In this document: piece by piece, positions 10,037 to 17,081 of the stretch
Layout of the letters: each line of letters starts with the position of its first letter
How positions within the stretch are numbered: position 1 is the stretch's first letter
NCBI GenBank assembly: GCA_937922815.1
Contig: CALAJP010000095.1
Span: forward strand, 1 to 35,649
Origin: an uncultured Saprospiraceae bacterium
GTDB taxonomy: Bacteria; Bacteroidota; Bacteroidia; Chitinophagales; Saprospiraceae
DNA length: 35,649 nucleotides
Direction: 5' to 3'
Position numbers and translations under genes: made by a program
The notes under the pieces: model-generated
What the model was told of the DNA's origin: nothing
What the model saw: the letters and a program-made list of their open reading frames with translations, nothing else
The model's database searches: none

Positions 10037-10741
10037 ATGTGTACGGTAACTTACAGCCCTTCCTCGCAAGGAGGAATATTGACCTCTAACAGAGATGAAC
10101 AAGGAGGTAGAAATACATTAGCCCCTCAGAAATATACTCCCGAAAACCTGATTTACCCGAAAGATATTCAGTCGAATGGATCGTGGATTGTTTTAAGCAA
10201 AACCAGATGGGTTTGTTTGTTAAACGGTGGCTTTCAAAACCACACGCCTAAACCTAATTATAATGTGAGTAGAGGCGTGATTGTTATGAAAAGTATTAAA
10301 AGTGGAAACCTACGCGAATTTTGTCAATCTATTGACCTCACAGAAACACAACCGTTTACTTTATTGATGAATGATTTTAAAGGAGATGATTTTTTAGAAA
10401 TGGTTTGGGATGGAGAAAAGAAACATTTGCGTTACTTAGATCAGAAAGACTCTTATATTTGGTCGTCTTCGACGCTTTATAACGATGAAATGAAAGCCGA
10501 AAGGAAAAAATGGTTTCGAGATTTTTTTGATACTAAAAAGAAAAATGCAAGCCATTTACTAGAATTTCACCAAACCCATTTTACGGAAAACAGCGAATAT
10601 GATTTATTAATGAAACGTCCAAATGGTATTCAGACGGTTAGTATTTCTCAAATTGTAACTTCGGCACAAAACTCAAATTTTTATTATTTAGACCGACAAG
10701 AAAATTCAGAAACTAAAATTGCTTTTTTTGATGAAAAATAA
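10037..10741 (+). CDS. TANGO2/NRDE family protein
   Basis: 234 aa. The N-terminus has the family signature: Met-Cys2, then a short strand and SNRDE with Asn18-Arg19-Asp20-Glu21. Cys2 could act as an N-terminal nucleophile, as in the NTN-hydrolase-like fold proposed for the family. The eukaryotic relative TANGO2 affects Golgi organisation and haem/lipid handling, but the bacterial role is not established. Its 3' end overlaps the next gene by 11 nt (ATGAAAAATAA), evidence for translational coupling. Confidence 0.85.
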   Translation: MCTVTYSPSSQGGILTSNRDEQGGRNTLAPQKYTPENLIYPKDIQSNGSWIVLSKTRWVCLLNGGFQNHTPKPNYNVSRGVIVMKSIKSGNLREFCQSIDLTETQPFTLLMNDFKGDDFLEMVWDGEKKHLRYLDQKDSYIWSSSTLYNDEMKAERKKWFRDFFDTKKKNASHLLEFHQTHFTENSEYDLLMKRPNGIQTVSISQIVTSAQNSNFYYLDRQENSETKIAFFDEK

Positions 10742-11690
10742 TTCAAAAGATGGGTTTATCATTGCTTTGTCTTGGCCTGATACCTATTGCAAGCAGGCAG
10801 GGGCTTGGTATGATGAACCAATGAATATTTTAGGCTTTAGTTATTTCAATTATTATAAAGTTGGTCATGCGGCATTGGTTTTAGTAGATGCAGAGGGCGT
10901 TTGCAAATATTTTGATTTCGGGAGATACCATGCTCCTAAAGGATATGGACGGGTAAGAAGTGAGAAAACGGATTTTGATTTAAAGATGAATCAAAAAGCC
11001 ATGATTCAAGAAGATAAAATTTTAAATATAGACGCTTTACTTGACGAATTATATCAGCGAAAAGCTTGTCATGGAGATGGTAAATTAGTTGCCAGTTATA
11101 CGAGAATTAAGTACCAAAAATCGTTGGATTATGTATTAAAAATGCAGGAAAATAGCCCATTACCCTATGGTGTTTTTGTTCGTGGGGGCAGTAACTGTGC
11201 TCGTTTTGTTCGAAAGGCAGTATTAAAAGGTACGAATAATGTTTGGGTCTGGTCCAAAATTTTCATTCCATATTCTATTAGCCCTTCTCCTTTGGGCGTT
11301 GTTCGTGGTTTACCTCATCAAATGACTGTTGGAAATTCATTAAGTTCATGGAAACCTAATTGTAAACCAAAACACTTAGAATCTACACTCCCTAAACCTA
11401 TTTTGCCGTCTCACCTTCCAATTAATGCGGTATGGCACGCAGGAGAAGGAGCAGGGTCTTGGTTTTGTTTTGAGCAGTTAGCTTCAAGAAAATATTTAAT
11501 GCAGCGTTATAGTCCCAATGGCAAATTAGAATGTTCCGCTGAGATGCTTGAAGATAAAGGTATATTCGAAATTGATAAAGAATTTACCATTGAGTATTTG
11601 TCGCACTGCAATAGTATTATCTTAAAACAAAAAGGAGAACTTACCCCAATGAAAGCCACCAAAAATATTAGTGTTTCAGTTCCTATTTAA
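10731..11690 (+). CDS. DUF6695-type protein
   Basis: 319 aa from ATG 10731, preferred over TTG 10719 because it gives the expected MKNNSKDGFIIALSWPDTYC beginning. Conserved blocks: ALSWPDTYCKQAGAWYD, YKVGHAALVLVD (His46), FDFGRYHAPKGYGRVRS, and SNCARFVRKA (Cys156). The His/Cys arrangement hints at a papain-like or LRAT/NlpC-like fold, which is inference only. It overlaps the TANGO2 gene and belongs to that operon. The match to DUF6695 rests on my memory of the motif pattern. Confidence 0.65.
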   Translation: MKNNSKDGFIIALSWPDTYCKQAGAWYDEPMNILGFSYFNYYKVGHAALVLVDAEGVCKYFDFGRYHAPKGYGRVRSEKTDFDLKMNQKAMIQEDKILNIDALLDELYQRKACHGDGKLVASYTRIKYQKSLDYVLKMQENSPLPYGVFVRGGSNCARFVRKAVLKGTNNVWVWSKIFIPYSISPSPLGVVRGLPHQMTVGNSLSSWKPNCKPKHLESTLPKPILPSHLPINAVWHAGEGAGSWFCFEQLASRKYLMQRYSPNGKLECSAEMLEDKGIFEIDKEFTIEYLSHCNSIILKQKGELTPMKATKNISVSVPI

Positions 11691-11728: not shown

Positions 11729-11763
11729 TGCAGCGTTTTCAACGTTCAAGGAATCTAAGAGGT
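11729..11763 (+). promoter_or_regulatory. Probable ECF-sigma promoter, autoregulatory site
   Basis: TGCAGCGTTTT at 11729-11739, a 14-nt spacer, then TCTAAGA at 11754-11760 followed by GGT, 41 nt upstream of the sigma gene. The same two blocks with the same spacing lie before the lipoprotein gene at 13751. This is the layout of a -35/-10 pair for an ECF sigma, here probably the sigma encoded next. Confidence 0.75.
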
Positions 11764-11801
11764 GTTAAGTATTCTCTTAGAATATTCTTGAAAGACTTGA
11801 T

Positions 11802-12341
11802 ATGTCAGAAAATGAGTTAATTAAAGGCTGTGTAAATAATGATAGGAGTTGTCAAAAACTCTTATTTCAACGTTATTCTGGACGATTGTTAATTTTAGCA
11901 AAAATGTATGCTCGTACACGAACAGAAGCGGAAGATTTCGTACAAGTTACTTTTATTAAAGCATTTGGAAACCTTAAATCTTTTCAATTTAAATCTACTT
12001 TAGAAACGTGGTTGAAAAGAATTTTAATTAATGTGGCATTGAAAGAGTTAAAGAAAAAAAGATCCAAAAATGAGTTAATCGGAATTGATTTGAAAGAACC
12101 GATACCTTTCGAAAACGACTTCATAGAAAGACTTAGTTTTAATGAAATAATCGAATATATCAGCCAATTACCCGATGGTTTTAGAGCTGTTTTTAACTTA
12201 TTTGTTTTTGAAGGCTATTCGCACAAAGAAATAGCGAAGGCACTAAACATAACAGAAAGCACTTCCAGATCTCAATTGACAAGAGGTAGAAAACTCTTGC
12301 AGCAAAAAATTACAGAAGCCAATAAAATCACTTATCCATGA
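11802..12341 (+). CDS. ECF-family RNA polymerase sigma factor
   Basis: 179 aa. Region 2 is at about residues 12-78 (LFQRYSGRLLILAKMYARTR then EAEDFVQVTFIKAF), with the -10 contact segment. Region 4 is at about 120-172 (LPDGFRAVFNLFVFEGYSHK and the recognition helix ITESTSRSQLTRGRKLL). No region 3 or extra C-terminal domain. Its stop overlaps the next gene's start in ATGA, so a cognate membrane protein is translationally coupled. The preceding promoter element suggests it transcribes its own operon. Confidence 0.92.
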   Translation: MSENELIKGCVNNDRSCQKLLFQRYSGRLLILAKMYARTRTEAEDFVQVTFIKAFGNLKSFQFKSTLETWLKRILINVALKELKKKRSKNELIGIDLKEPIPFENDFIERLSFNEIIEYISQLPDGFRAVFNLFVFEGYSHKEIAKALNITESTSRSQLTRGRKLLQQKITEANKITYP

Positions 12342-13648
12342 AAGATTTTGACAAAATATTACGACAGAAATATGACGAGGCATCTATACCCCCGCCAATG
12401 GACTTGTGGGACGGGATTGAAGTGGAGTTGAATAAACAAACAAGTAAAAAGGGCGGGTATTGGAAATGGAGTTTGTTGTTGGGTGTAGGCTTATCGGCTA
12501 TGTTTTTATTTAGTTATTTTCATAAAAATAAGGGAGGGGAATTAATTACGGAAAGATTAGAAAAAAAGGAGATTCCAAAAAATCAAAAATTAATACCTCA
12601 AAGTCAAAACATGATGGAAGGGGCTGTTGCGGTTGATGTAACAAGCAGTGCATTAAAAGTTAGCCAAGAAACTAACAAGCCTTTATCCTTTGATACTAAT
12701 GTTTTTAAAACAAAAAGAGGTTTTTATAAACAAGTTGCTTTACCACAACCAACGGACGACAATAAAAAATTTGTATTAGAAAATGTTGAGAAAAAAGAAG
12801 AAAAAGCAATAATTATAAAAGAAGAAACTACGGCAAAATCTTCTATTGAAGAACCTTTTGTTAGCTACAATAAAAACCTTTTGTCAATAGGCAATAATTC
12901 TTTTTATTTAGAAACCAATTTGCCCAAATTTAATAAAGTAAAAGATTGCTATTCGTTTGATAAGAATCCGCTTTCAAAAAGCTTTTTTGTAGAAGCGGAT
13001 GCAGGGTATTTATCCATAATGAGAAAAATCGAAGAAAATAGCACTGAAAACAGTACTTTTTTGGCAGAGAAAGAAAATTCGGAGACGGTTCTTCCCAGTT
13101 TTCAAGGTTCGGTTTTGTTAGGAGCTAAATTTCAGAATCAATGGATTTTAAAATTAGGTGTTGATTATAAAAAATGGAGAACTAAATTTAATTATGCCCA
13201 AGGAGATTATGTTAGAACAGTAATAACCACCGTAAACGGAAATACGCAAACTGAAACACAAACAGGTACATTAAATGTTCAACATTTCAATAAAATTTAC
13301 AGAATAGATATTCCGATATATTTAGGATATGAAAAAGACTTTAATAATATATTCGTCAACGCGGCTATTGGAGTGTCTTTTAATGTGTATGGCAAGAGTG
13401 CAGGAAAAGTGATTAATTCGGATTTGGATATCGTAAATTTAGAAGAGGCGAATTTTTATAGACAATCTACTTTTGAACAATCACTATTAGGACAAGTGCA
13501 AGTAGGGTACAGGCTTACTGAAAAATTATCGGCTTATCTCAAGGCGGATTATCAACATGGAATTTCTGATTGGACAACAGACGAATACCCAGTGATTGAG
13601 CATTGGTCAGGCGTAAGCTCGAAATTAGGAATTCGATATAGTTTTTAA
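12338..13648 (+). CDS. Membrane-anchored protein with outer-membrane-barrel-like domain, probable anti-sigma
   Basis: 436 aa. Residues 1-40 are a short acidic/basic cytoplasmic-like region (FDKILRQKYDEASIPPPMDL), 43-61 a single transmembrane helix, about 62-210 a polar Lys/Glu-rich linker, and 215-436 a beta-rich domain with repeated aromatic strands and a terminal Phe, like the outer-membrane barrel or PorT-type domain. Position and N-terminal layout match Bacteroidota proteins that follow ECF sigma genes and act as anti-sigma factors. No FecR domain or zinc-binding ZAS motif is visible. A barrel attached to an inner-membrane anchor is hard to picture as an integral barrel, so the C-terminal part may be periplasmic. 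Confidence 0.7.
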   Translation: MKDFDKILRQKYDEASIPPPMDLWDGIEVELNKQTSKKGGYWKWSLLLGVGLSAMFLFSYFHKNKGGELITERLEKKEIPKNQKLIPQSQNMMEGAVAVDVTSSALKVSQETNKPLSFDTNVFKTKRGFYKQVALPQPTDDNKKFVLENVEKKEEKAIIIKEETTAKSSIEEPFVSYNKNLLSIGNNSFYLETNLPKFNKVKDCYSFDKNPLSKSFFVEADAGYLSIMRKIEENSTENSTFLAEKENSETVLPSFQGSVLLGAKFQNQWILKLGVDYKKWRTKFNYAQGDYVRTVITTVNGNTQTETQTGTLNVQHFNKIYRIDIPIYLGYEKDFNNIFVNAAIGVSFNVYGKSAGKVINSDLDIVNLEEANFYRQSTFEQSLLGQVQVGYRLTEKLSAYLKADYQHGISDWTTDEYPVIEHWSGVSSKLGIRYSF

Positions 13649-13667
13649 AAAATAAATGTTTTATGCT

Positions 13668-13702
13668 TGCAGCGTTTTTGACACTAAAAGGGTCTAAGAA
13701 GT
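13668..13702 (+). promoter_or_regulatory. Probable ECF-sigma promoter of the downstream lipoprotein gene
   Basis: TGCAGCGTTTT at 13668-13678, a 14-nt spacer, then TCTAAGA at 13693-13699 followed by AGT, 51 nt before the ATG. Both blocks are identical to those at 11729-11760 and the spacer length is the same, although the spacer sequences differ. Confidence 0.75.
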
Positions 13703-13750
13703 ATAAGGAAATTCGAATGCCCTTCTTATTTTAAAAACAAATAAATAACC

Positions 13751-14776
13751 ATGAAAAAAATAATTTCTTATTTAACTATACTTTTAGTTTTATTATTACC
13801 ATTTGCTTGTGTTGAAGATAATTTCGAAGAATTTATTGCTGATGAAACTGAAGAATTGCCATCAACCTTGGAAGACTTTGAAAAGGTTTTAGCCGCTTTA
13901 CAAGATTCCGTTTTTAATGATGTTTCTGGCGTGTGTAATGTCCAAAATAATGAGGGTGGAACATTTAGGACAAAATATGGCTCAATAATAACAATATCAG
14001 AAGATGCTTTTGATATAAACGGATGTAATAGTTGCAGTAATGATTTTGAAATAGAAGTAACTTATATCGAATTGCATACTATCGAAGAGTTAATTCGATT
14101 TTACAAGCCTACAGTTTCTAATGGTTTCCCTTTAGTTTCGGGAGGTGTTATAAAGTTTGAAGCTAAGGTTGGAGACGAAATAGTCTATTTAAGAGATGGC
14201 GTTTCTATCAATGTAAAATTTCCGATTAACGATGATACCCAGTTCCAAAACAGTATGGAATTGTTTGAAGGAGAATTGATAGCCAACCCTTCTACGGTCG
14301 AAGATTCTATATATAATTGGGAACCAATTCCTCAAGAAAATCCTGAATTTGGTGATGTAGCTATTACCGAATTAGATTCTTTGAGTGATATTTTGTTTTA
14401 TGATTTTAATGTAGATAGTTATGAATGGATTAATTGTGATGCTTTTTATAATTTTCCTGACAATCAACTAACAGATATTAAACTGGTTTTACCAGAAGCG
14501 TTTTCATATACCAACACTATTGTTTATCTATATTTTACTGAAGAGAATACCGTCATGCAATTATATTATGATAATGATTCTTTCACTGCTAAAAATATTC
14601 CAATTGGATATAAAGCTAAAATTGTGGGTATTTCTACGACTAAAGATGATAATGACAATCCTGTTTATTGGTTAAGTAAAATTGATGAATTTTCTATAGA
14701 AAGTGGACTTAGTTTAACTACCGACCCCGAGGAAGTAACAGAAGAAGAGGTGGAAAACTTTATCAAATCGATATAG
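13751..14776 (+). CDS. Lipoprotein of unknown function, likely target of the neighbouring ECF sigma
   Basis: 341 aa. The signal peptide ends in lipobox PFAC (Cys20). The mature protein is strongly acidic with many Asp/Glu clusters, includes two cysteine pairs (CNVQ region and CNSC near residues 95-100), and ends in a DPEEVTEEEVENF stretch. I recognise no family. It has its own copy of the ECF promoter element and a strong terminator, so it forms a separate unit within the sigma locus. Surface or periplasmic location is expected. Confidence 0.75.
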   Translation: MKKIISYLTILLVLLLPFACVEDNFEEFIADETEELPSTLEDFEKVLAALQDSVFNDVSGVCNVQNNEGGTFRTKYGSIITISEDAFDINGCNSCSNDFEIEVTYIELHTIEELIRFYKPTVSNGFPLVSGGVIKFEAKVGDEIVYLRDGVSINVKFPINDDTQFQNSMELFEGELIANPSTVEDSIYNWEPIPQENPEFGDVAITELDSLSDILFYDFNVDSYEWINCDAFYNFPDNQLTDIKLVLPEAFSYTNTIVYLYFTEENTVMQLYYDNDSFTAKNIPIGYKAKIVGISTTKDDNDNPVYWLSKIDEFSIESGLSLTTDPEEVTEEEVENFIKSI

Positions 14777-14797: not shown

Positions 14798-14832
14798 AAA
14801 AGGAAGTAGTTTTTTAGCTACTTCCTTTTGTA
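14798..14832 (+). terminator. Rho-independent terminator after the lipoprotein gene
   Basis: A perfect 12-bp stem (14798-14809 with 14818-14829) with an 8-nt loop, 22 nt after the stop codon. The A/T-rich ends of the stem give it U tracts on both strands. Confidence 0.85.
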
Positions 14833-15058: not shown

Positions 15059-15997
15059 TTATGCTTTTATCAATCCAATTTCGACCAATCGTTGGTGTAA
15101 AAAGTCACCTGCTTTGATAGGTTCGTAAGCTATGGGATGATTTTCGTCAATACAATTTTCCAAACAATTCAAAGGCATGTCGCTATTGGGGTGTAAGAAA
15201 AAAGGAATACTCAATCGAGGTTTATGCCATTCTTCGCGAGGCGGATTAACGACACGATGAGTTGTAGAACGGAGTTTATTATTAGTCAATCTTTCCAACA
15301 TATCTCCTACATTGATTACTATTTCGTCGTTTTCAGTAACCACATCTAACCAGTTTTCATTTTTGTCCAAGACTTGCAAACCACCTGCAGAGGCACCCAC
15401 CAAAAGCGTAATTAGGTTTATATCTTCATGAGATTCGGCACGAATTGCGTTTTTAGGTTCAGTCGTGATAGGAGGGTAGTGGATACTTCTCAAAATACTG
15501 TTACCATCCTGTACGAAATTGGCAAAGTAGTCTTCCTCTAAACCCAAATAAGTGGCAATCGCTTGAAGTAATTGAAAGCCCACATTTTCAAAATTTTTAT
15601 ATAAATCGACCCCTAATTGCGTGAAGTTAGATTCTTCTACCACTACATTGGGGATGTAGTCATCTCTGTGTTTTTGGTTTTCTTGACCCAATTGAAAAAA
15701 TTCTTTTAAATCGGGAACGTCAGATTGTTTAGCATGTTCAACACCAAAAGCGGTATAGCCTCTTTGACCAGCAACTCCTTCAAGATGATATTTTTCTTTT
15801 ACACTTTTGGGTTGATTAAAAAACTGGTGTGAAGCGTCATAAAAATCAGCAATTACATCTTTAGGGATACCGTGACCTACGACACCTACAAAACCAATAG
15901 TTTCAAAAGCTTGTCCTATCTTTTGTATAAAACTATTTTTGGTATCTGGATTTTTAAAATCATTCAAATTTACCAATGGAATCGCTCTTTCTTGCAT
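15059..15997 (-). CDS. 2-oxoglutarate/Fe(II) oxygenase, isopenicillin N synthase family
   Basis: 312 aa from ATG 15997. A longer frame opens at 16048, but its extra N-terminal residues (YYIVYYC region) look non-coding and would overlap gldB. The iron facial triad is visible: His190-x-Asp192 in ESHEDINL and His247 in STTHRVVNPP. Arg261 and Ser263 in RLSIPFF are the 2-oxoglutarate carboxylate clamp. The N-terminal DIOX_N region (IPLVNLNDF ... GFVGVVGHGIP) is intact. Soluble and cytoplasmic; substrate unknown. It follows gldB by 43 nt, so the two are probably cotranscribed. Confidence 0.87.
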   Translation of the reverse strand: MQERAIPLVNLNDFKNPDTKNSFIQKIGQAFETIGFVGVVGHGIPKDVIADFYDASHQFFNQPKSVKEKYHLEGVAGQRGYTAFGVEHAKQSDVPDLKEFFQLGQENQKHRDDYIPNVVVEESNFTQLGVDLYKNFENVGFQLLQAIATYLGLEEDYFANFVQDGNSILRSIHYPPITTEPKNAIRAESHEDINLITLLVGASAGGLQVLDKNENWLDVVTENDEIVINVGDMLERLTNNKLRSTTHRVVNPPREEWHKPRLSIPFFLHPNSDMPLNCLENCIDENHPIAYEPIKAGDFLHQRLVEIGLIKA

Positions 15998-16040
15998 ATC
16001 CTTATTTTTAAGTTGACAATAGTAAACAATATAATATTTT

Positions 16041-17081
16041 TTAATCAATTTTTGGCTTAAATCTGGAATCAGTCAATATTTTCTGAGCATCCGATATGCT
16101 TAATAACTGTTTGATAGTATTGCCCGTTCTGTCCATGTAGGCTTCCACTATTTTAAATCCCATAAAATTGCCGGTTCGTCCTGGTGCTTCCGCAGGCATT
16201 TTGGAAGAATTGGGAGATGGGTTTATCAATTTATTAAAATCATGGAGACGGGTAGAATACATTAAGTCTTCACTGAAAAAATGTGCCCATATCTGGCTTT
16301 GATTCTTTTCGCACCAATCTAATTGCTCTGCTGTATATTCATGGATAATTGTATCACTAACAGTTGGTAAAAGTTGCTTTAAAACATACAGTTTTTTACC
16401 ATTATGAATAATATGGTCGATAAAACGAGAACCTTTAGTAACCCCTATTTTATCATCTACTAATACTTCAATGGTCTTTTTTACCAAGTGGTCTTTGTTG
16501 AACGTACGAGTTAGATATTGTGAAAAACTAGGGTTGCCAGGGTTCAAGTCTAAATAAGGGTAATCTTCACCTAAATAAAAGTCCAACCCAATTCCAATTC
16601 CATCTTTATCGGTGTCTTGAAAAATAAAATTACCATAAGCATATTCCGAAATTAGAGTATAAAAACGAGGTATTTCTTCGTTCGGAAAATAATATTTATA
16701 AAACTGAAGTGCTTGGGTCAGTTCTGATTGAATTTTACTTTTGGATTGATTAGACAATTTAGATTTTTGATACAAATTATTTATGGTGCTATCTCCAATC
16801 ATCATTTTGAAACTGGCTATGGCTTCAGGGCTATTTAGGGGCGTGGGTAATTTCAATATTTGATTGCAATATAAAGGAGTAAAAGAAGGGTATTCTTTTA
16901 ATAATTCTTCTACTTTAGGTTCAATTTCGTTGGTATCAATAGTGAAAAGTTTATCGGCATAGTCAATCCATTCCAATTCGATATTAATATGACTTACATC
17001 GGGAGTACTATCTGATTGGCAGCTAAACATACTTAGCGTAAGGATTAATAATAAACCCCAAATTAAATTAATTCTGTTCAT
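16041..17081 (-). CDS. gldB: Gliding motility lipoprotein GldB
   Basis: 346 aa with lipobox MFSC at Cys21 after a hydrophobic signal. Family features: an N-terminal block IDYADKLFTID ... LLKEYPSFTPLYC, a central VDDKIGVTKGSRFIDHIIHN section, and a C-terminal block with GRTGNFMGFKIVEAYMDRTG and a final SDAQKILTDSRFKPK. GldB is an envelope lipoprotein needed for gliding and type IX secretion in Flavobacterium. In flavobacteria gldC usually follows gldB; here a 2OG oxygenase takes that place and no gldC is in the window. Divergent from nadC. Confidence 0.85.
   Translation of the reverse strand: MNRINLIWGLLLILTLSMFSCQSDSTPDVSHINIELEWIDYADKLFTIDTNEIEPKVEELLKEYPSFTPLYCNQILKLPTPLNSPEAIASFKMMIGDSTINNLYQKSKLSNQSKSKIQSELTQALQFYKYYFPNEEIPRFYTLISEYAYGNFIFQDTDKDGIGIGLDFYLGEDYPYLDLNPGNPSFSQYLTRTFNKDHLVKKTIEVLVDDKIGVTKGSRFIDHIIHNGKKLYVLKQLLPTVSDTIIHEYTAEQLDWCEKNQSQIWAHFFSEDLMYSTRLHDFNKLINPSPNSSKMPAEAPGRTGNFMGFKIVEAYMDRTGNTIKQLLSISDAQKILTDSRFKPKID

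Follow-up and report, generated by a model that had tools for sequence, protein, structure and literature searches.

A putative self-regulated sigma factor module of the Das-Dma type, with a paired promoter-like element and a lipoprotein gene, in an uncultured Saprospiraceae bacterium

A 35,649-nucleotide stretch of DNA from an uncultured Saprospiraceae bacterium (GenBank assembly GCA_937922815.1, contig CALAJP010000095.1, positions 1 to 35,649; hereafter the window) carries genes for an extracytoplasmic function (ECF) sigma factor, a predicted barrel-bearing anti-sigma factor, and a lipoprotein, with the same bipartite promoter-like element before the first gene and before the third. With a probability of about 0.8, this locus is a self-regulated envelope-stress module of the Das-Dma type (ECF21-like). 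By analogy with published relatives, the two-helix cytoplasmic tip of the anti-sigma factor would hold the sigma factor until the barrel or tether of the same protein senses a disturbance of the outer membrane, the conjectured signal, and the sigma factor is set free. RNA polymerase with the freed sigma factor would then read both copies of the element, here called P1 and P2. Feedback through P1 would yield more sigma factor and more anti-sigma factor, that is, amplification together with its own brake, and P2 would supply the lipoprotein, which may be a dedicated local output.

The element, TGCAGCGTTTT-N14-TCTAAGA, lies at positions 11729 to 11760 (P1) and 13668 to 13699 (P2), both on the + strand, and all 18 defined bases are identical, so that the placement and identity given in an earlier sequence-only reading of the window were exact. 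P1 comprises a -35 block TGCAGC(G) at 11729 to 11735 and a -10 region AATCTAA at 11752 to 11758, the 14-base spacer being counted from the 9-mer TGCAGCGTT; P2 is the same element, with its -35 block at 13668 to 13674 and a -10 region GGTCTAA at 13691 to 13697. From their positions, P1 is taken to drive the sigma and anti-sigma genes and P2 the lipoprotein gene. These are the only two elements in the window at up to three mismatches, with a shuffle expectation of 0.04 and no shuffle containing two. The whole genome (3,880,039 bases) has exactly two exact matches, one before the ECF sigma gene and one before the lipoprotein gene, and none to the reversed control pattern. The looser pattern GCAGCG-N17-19-TCTAA recovers the same two matches only (one for the control), and allowing up to three mismatches adds nine sites (three for the control), all nine inside open frames 102 codons or longer. 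Between the two spacers, CAACGTTCAAGGAA and TGACACTAAAAGGG, 5 of 14 bases agree, and the flanks of the two elements differ as well; the second element is therefore not a recent duplication, and the view that a site has been conserved here stands. That the second copy arose by chance or by recent duplication has a negligible probability, given the differing spacers and flanks, the shuffle expectation, and the recurrence of the element in other genomes; chance, duplication, and a further genomic copy were all rejected by the shuffle statistics and the genome scans.

The element of the window is one instance of a bipartite consensus, GGCARCG..-N14-TATCTA, that precedes most of the related sigma genes examined at the same spacing. 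A two-block model, seeded with the window motif and fitted to the regions upstream of the sigma genes at 25 other loci, converged to GGCAGCGaa-N14-tATCTtt and gives P1 a score of 16.2. Upstream of the lipoprotein genes, this model scored above 99% of shuffles (which keep single-base content only) in 20 of 24 loci, the window included, and above 95% in 21 of 24; the spacer is 14 bases long in 17 of the 20 that passed the 99% level. One locus with its lipoprotein gene 3.5 kb away (L114) was excluded from these promoter counts, and another (L136) has no lipoprotein gene. At loci outside the fitting set and with dinucleotide-preserving shuffles, P values of 0.01 or less were obtained for 13 of 23 sigma upstream regions (9 of 10 where a lipoprotein gene is a neighbor) and for 5 of 10 lipoprotein upstream regions. 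Among 43 loci with all three genes (L173 was omitted from the pairing as the same locus as L099), 41 have a sigma promoter and 31 a lipoprotein promoter with a score of at least 11, and 29 have both. In those 29 loci, promoters from the same locus match each other at 11.1 of 16 positions, and shuffled pairings at 10.4 (P = 0.003, with no correction for relatedness); the sites of L053 are identical to those of L177, and the two may come from near-identical genomes. The promoter-like element thus also precedes the lipoprotein gene in many loci of Saprospiraceae and Chitinophagales.

Across 150 genomes of the same family, the strict window motif (TGCARCGTTTT...TCTAA) showed no enrichment outside the window (4 sites in other genomes and 4 control sites). 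The strict family consensus was enriched, with 27 sites compared with 9 for the reversed pattern. Four of the 27 lie directly before sigma genes, 4 before lipoprotein genes, 12 inside open reading frames, and 7 in other intergenic regions. Five of the eight sites at sigma or lipoprotein genes belong to loci outside the set of gene trios, one of the five (L153) being the locus of L054. Among the seven other intergenic sites, one precedes another lipoprotein-like gene and two precede proteins with signal-like starts (L139, contig G096:C295; L149; L159), and some relatives may therefore have wider envelope regulons. In the window genome, the regulon proposed by the sequence-only reading holds as far as the shared element before the sigma and lipoprotein genes is concerned, but it amounts to two promoters genome-wide at the stringency tested.

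Over a wider range of relatives, comprising 183 distinct sigma genes after the removal of 3 identical sigma proteins, the relaxed pattern NNC[AC][AG]C-N19-TC[TA] was found upstream of 136, compared with 5 for the reversed sequences and 10.9 for shuffles; in the class-wide set alone, it precedes 57 of 78. The form of an ECF-type promoter, a bipartite -35/-10 pair at fixed spacing before the sigma factor's own gene, is accordingly present in those 136 cases.

The sigma gene itself (11802 to 12341, + strand) encodes a putative Das-type protein of 179 residues with matches to PF08281 and PF04542 (sigma-70 regions 2 and 4), which shares 37 to 47% identity with its counterparts in 19 relatives. The region 4.2 stretch of the protein, ESTSRSQL (residues 152 to 159; 12255 to 12278, + strand), contains S153, R156, and S157, which covary with the bases of the -35 block. 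Where the fifth place of this stretch is Lys, base 5 of the -35 block is A in 49 of 49 cases; where Ser, Arg, and Ser occupy the second, fifth, and sixth places (S..RS), base 5 is G in 48 of 57, and across all sigma factors other than S..RS it is A in 74 of 79. Base 7 is a purine for 81 of 87 Arg-type sigma factors and for 1 of 49 of the Lys type. The correlation was first noticed in 80 sigma genes, and the added set alone gives A for 27 of 27 Lys-type proteins, G for 13 of 16 S..RS proteins, and A for 12 of 14 other Arg-type proteins. Among the supported contrasts on a tree built without the correlated columns, none of the typical pairings has the base changing in the opposite direction. That the -35 bases track the region 4.2 residues argues that the sigma factor of the window, and not another regulator, reads the element; on these sequence comparisons it probably does so, which favors the self-regulation claimed at the outset, as does the recurrence of the element at fixed spacing before the sigma genes and many of the lipoprotein genes of relatives.

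Several results weigh against this picture. Where the lipoprotein gene is absent, only 4 of 13 sigma upstream regions from loci not used in fitting reach the 0.01 level, and 47 of the 183 distinct sigma genes have no relaxed match upstream. Reverse complements match 13 of the first 106 sigma upstream regions, more than the 6.2 expected from shuffles (the correct strand matches 80 of 106). Twelve of the 43 trio loci have no good P2; in three of these (L108, L117, and L118), the gap between the anti-sigma and lipoprotein genes is 51, 15, and 0 bases, respectively, and read-through from P1 could therefore serve there. As for the correlation, relatedness weakens it: the sixth-place Ser was a later addition to the rule, and with it the S..RS grouping, made after the data had been seen, and the related sequences leave supported independent contrasts that number only 4 for S..RS and 1 for Arg/Lys, too few for significance in a sign test.

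The shared element could instead be bound by another regulator or by another sigma factor of the same cell. The window genome has 19 places that match the sigma factor, itself included, and one of the 18 others (L014) has a nearly identical region 4.2 stretch, ESTSRSNL. However, the element has the -35/-10 form and spacing and precedes most of the examined relatives of this particular sigma factor, and its -35 bases track the region 4.2 residues of sigma factors of the window type, so that such a reading is improbable. The model gives each of the 18 other sigma genes a score of 9.5 or less, and the relaxed pattern matches only 3 of the 18, two of which (L015 and L017) are of the Lys type with CAAC sites, as the residue-base correlation predicts; the low scores and the few relaxed matches make the circuit of the window look largely private. 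As separate observations on these paralogues, six of the sigma genes (L014, contig G000:C253; L018; L019; L013; L015; and L016) are followed by genes for proteins with a similar kind of N-terminal tip and a transmembrane helix, three of these proteins being 393 to 449 residues long, and the L014 sigma gene has a partial site, AGCAGC, with a score of 9.5.

The second gene (12338 to 13648, + strand) shares an ATGA overlap with the sigma gene, and its 436-residue product had been proposed, as a membrane-anchored barrel protein, to be the anti-sigma factor. AlphaFold2, Foldseek, and a survey of linkers agree with this proposal in that the predicted architecture is the plan published for the Dma and Reo anti-sigma factors, a single chain spanning both membranes. 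In the AlphaFold2 model (45 sequences, mean predicted local distance difference test [pLDDT] score of 74.5), helices at residues 4 to 13 and 23 to 35 form a two-helix N terminus (12338 to 12457), followed by an inner-membrane helix at residues 41 to 63 (12458 to 12526), a disordered tether with disorder at residues 66 to 212 (12527 to 12973), and an OmpA-like barrel at residues 215 to 435 (12974 to 13645), for which pLDDT is mostly above 90. The barrel matches OmpA (9fzc) with a Foldseek TM-score of 0.68 normalized by the target, and PF13568 is detected at E values of 0.1 or less in 16 of 26 aligned members. The predicted domain order is thus that of Dma proteins (N-terminal region, transmembrane helix, long disordered tether, and barrel in one chain), and, as with Dma, the cognate ECF sigma gene is next door, both in the window and at 27 of 29, 76 of 80, and 77 of 80 loci in the three sets described below. 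The tether is about 150 residues long in the window; across 26 aligned members its median length is 168 residues and its minimum 137, and across 45 the median is 171 and the minimum 111, lengths to be expected if the tether must cross the periplasm.

A different view of this gene is that its hydrophobic helix is a signal peptide removed by cleavage and that its barrel is an ordinary porin-like protein placed after the sigma gene by chance. PF13568 barrels are common, and the hydrophobic segment in the window is weaker (1.41) than those of most relatives, 24 of 26 reaching at least 1.6. Against this, the helix is preceded by some 40 residues that include a shared motif, the long tether persists throughout both aligned sets, and the Dma and Reo proteins have the same plan in their published descriptions, all of which makes the signal peptide very improbable and leaves a two-membrane anti-sigma factor as the favored assignment. 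Loci of the same plan were also found in Bacteroidales (e.g., L208, L215, and L222). In a separate observation, the anti-sigma genes of L226, L014, and L015 appear to encode two tandem copies of D-x-x-F-x-x-K-L...P-x-x-x-W-x-x-I before the membrane helix.

By domain plan and published descriptions, the circuit appears to be a Saprospiraceae variant of a known, recently discovered kind (Das-Dma/ECF21 and EcfO-Reo). The outer-envelope sensing circuit of the sequence-only reading is therefore supported by comparison, with the qualification that its kind had already been described. In Das-Dma from Bacteroides thetaiotaomicron, an ECF21 sigma factor is paired with an anti-sigma factor composed of an N-terminal binding region, a transmembrane helix, a tether, and a C-terminal barrel; Dma2 lies in a three-gene operon, whose own genes rank with those most raised when Dma2 is lost (log2 fold change of 4.54 for das2 in the dma2 deletion mutant), and the system is linked to vesicle formation (PMC13088901). 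The window likewise places the sigma gene beside an anti-sigma gene with a tip, one transmembrane helix, a long disordered tether, and a barrel, but it differs in having two predicted transcription units with the same promoter element and in its third gene, which encodes a lipoprotein with no Pfam match and hence none to DUF4943 (BT_1557). EcfO-Reo of Phocaeicola vulgatus and Bacteroides fragilis also has an anti-sigma factor that spans from the cytoplasm to the outer membrane (PMC9308784, PMC13114119), the plan predicted here. It is induced by antibacterial toxins, the P. vulgatus sigma gene rising 33-fold under the envelope-active toxin BcpT (PMC9308784), and the EcfO regulon includes NigD surface lipoproteins, M0N98_03762 being numbered next to ecfO (PMC9308784, PMC13114119); one EcfO-controlled NigD was seen in broth only with reo deleted or with the cells stressed (PMC13114119). 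The lipoprotein of the window, in contrast, belongs to a family other than NigD.

More distant likenesses can be drawn as well. Of the ECF sigma factors of Bacteroidetes, only 6% are reported to be accompanied by class I domains (as in proteins of the RseA and ChrR types), and in the class II pair CnrH-CnrY two helices of the anti-sigma factor wrap the sigma factor (PMC7406223). By that description, CnrY resembles the anti-sigma factor of the window in its short cytoplasmic tip, for which two helices are predicted here. CnrY is not known to have a tether or a barrel, unlike the window protein. With class I anti-sigma factors the latter shares its membrane-bound position next to an ECF sigma factor, but its tip of about 40 residues, with no His or Cys before the transmembrane helix, is neither the class I domain of about 100 residues nor a carrier of the H-x3-C-x2-C motif often found there.

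Conservation of the gene trio was followed in several sets of loci. In the 150 same-family genomes (that of the window included), relatives of the barrel protein occur in 110 and relatives of the lipoprotein in 55. Forty regions, chosen mostly by lipoprotein match, were taken and the window added: sigma, anti-sigma, and lipoprotein genes stand together in 25 loci, counting the window and the locus with the distant lipoprotein gene; one further locus (L136) lacks the lipoprotein, and in 15 regions a relative of the lipoprotein occurs with no anti-sigma gene nearby. Where loci were chosen by anti-sigma similarity alone, a sigma gene lies upstream in 27 of 29 and a lipoprotein gene of the same family downstream in 14 of 29. 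Among the best 80 of 570 sigma relatives in a scan of named genomes with a sigma alignment, an anti-sigma-like gene adjoins 77 (76 by a slightly stricter rule) and the lipoprotein gene lies downstream in 10; Saprospiraceae, Chitinophagales, Cytophagales, and Bacteroidales are among the record names, and those of these best 80 either belong to Bacteroidota or indicate no phylum. In a class-wide set of 80 sigma loci from the best-scoring matches listed, a Dma-type anti-sigma gene stands beside 76 and the lipoprotein gene in 1.

The lipoprotein could also be part of the sensor, binding the anti-sigma factor (on its barrel or tether) at the outer membrane and gating the release of the sigma factor, with its own promoter providing feedback. 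This would suit the 25 loci in which the trio stands together and the 14 of 29 anti-sigma loci, picked regardless of the lipoprotein, that have a lipoprotein gene of the same family directly downstream. Many Das-Dma-like pairs, however, have no lipoprotein (a homolog is present in only 1 of the 80 class-wide loci), and 15 regions have lipoprotein relatives with no anti-sigma gene nearby, so that a sensor role is unlikely, if worth keeping in view, and an output remains the preferred assignment. In 13 of these 15 regions the promoter score is below 12; in the other two (L129 and L131) it is 14.1 and 14.3, and those lipoproteins may therefore belong, as distant members, to this regulon.

The lipoprotein gene (13751 to 14776, + strand) encodes 341 residues with a lipobox cysteine, C20, and two predicted beta domains, ZU5/GAIN-like and CNA-B-like. 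C20, W190, D209, N255, and P284 are invariant in 22 aligned lipoproteins. No Pfam or NCBIfam family matches the protein (its relatives have only stray single matches), and no sequence relatives were found in PDB, the best E value being 0.34. For the structural model (mean pLDDT of 82.6), Foldseek returned a match with an E value of 6e-4 and a low TM-score, and VIA gave Z values of 7.1 to 7.4 to GAIN and ankyrin ZU5 over residues 52 to 234 and of 5.9 to DUF4876 over residues 240 to 329. The modeled ZU5/GAIN-like and CNA-B-like folds suggest a lead rather than a function, as a common topology could by itself account for these Z values. The VIA list contained no NigD-like structures, although their absence does not prove a difference. 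Most relatives have acidic residues after the lipidated cysteine, which resemble the surface-export signals of Bacteroidota lipoproteins, and the protein probably ends up in the outer membrane or at the cell surface. The NigD output of EcfO-Reo is not seen here: none of the 22 aligned lipoproteins matches NigD, and none of 61 family genomes has an NigD_N (PF12667) match above the cutoff, G016 having a single weak one below it (the control was positive in Bacteroides ihuae), so that NigD as such appears not to be involved.

A tentative possibility, less likely than not, combines a -35 code of Das/ECF21 sigma factors across Bacteroidota with a closed two-promoter circuit that has a single lipoprotein output. 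Under such a code, S..RS sigma factors would read CAGC followed by a purine and Lys-type sigma factors CAAC followed by a pyrimidine; the circuit, in Saprospiraceae and Chitinophagales, would have as its output a new ZU5/GAIN-like surface lipoprotein, which would act on the state of the outer membrane or report it through the coinherited barrel. If this is true, each Dma regulon, and the insulation of paralogues within one cell, could be predictable from sequence.

As far as the literature was searched, the promoter signature, the correlation between region 4.2 and the -35 bases, and the lipoprotein family, undescribed and standing where NigD is a reported output in Bacteroidales, are new. The signature was not found in the searched portions of the literature, which included PMC7406223, PMC9308784, PMC13088901, PMC12596196, and PMC13114119, and may have appeared in print earlier; the word "motif" is absent from the main text of PMC13088901 and PMC13114119. 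Dma proteins are a recent answer to the control of some ECF sigma factors that lack class I domains, and the signature and the residue-base correlation would allow Dma regulons to be listed in genomes of uncultivable organisms and crosstalk to be tested between the several Dma-like pairs coexisting in a cell. With a lipoprotein conserved in the place of NigD, there is a concrete handle on the role of such outer-membrane sensors outside the gut.

The unit as a whole runs P1, sigma gene, anti-sigma gene, P2, lipoprotein gene, and a terminator-like hairpin with a 14-pair stem (14798 to 14829, + strand; -19.9 kcal/mol, z = -6.5), which has no T-run past its arm and is missing from a separate listing of terminators. 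Inverted repeats cross both -10 regions, at 11754 to 11782 (8 pairs) and at 13694 to 13730 (7 pairs); as candidate operators, TCTAAGAG/CTCTTAGA at P1 (P = 0.04) and TAAGAAG/CTTCTTA at P2 (P = 0.06) were rejected, as the repeat is not general, with means of 2.6 and 2.9 in 25 sigma and 19 lipoprotein promoters and of 2.3 and 2.9 after shuffling. In several relatives (L098, L099, L106, L111, L116, and L136), the gene upstream of the sigma gene ends, by eye, in a calcium-loop-like tail of the D-x-D-G-D-G...D-D-A-like type, which is not present in the window. The upstream neighbors in the window (10037 to 11690), a TANGO2-family gene and a gene for a TseH-like/DUF6695 protein, show no sign of membership in the circuit. 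Downstream, on the other strand (15059 to 17081), a 2OG-Fe(II) oxygenase gene overlaps the gliding lipoprotein gene gldB.

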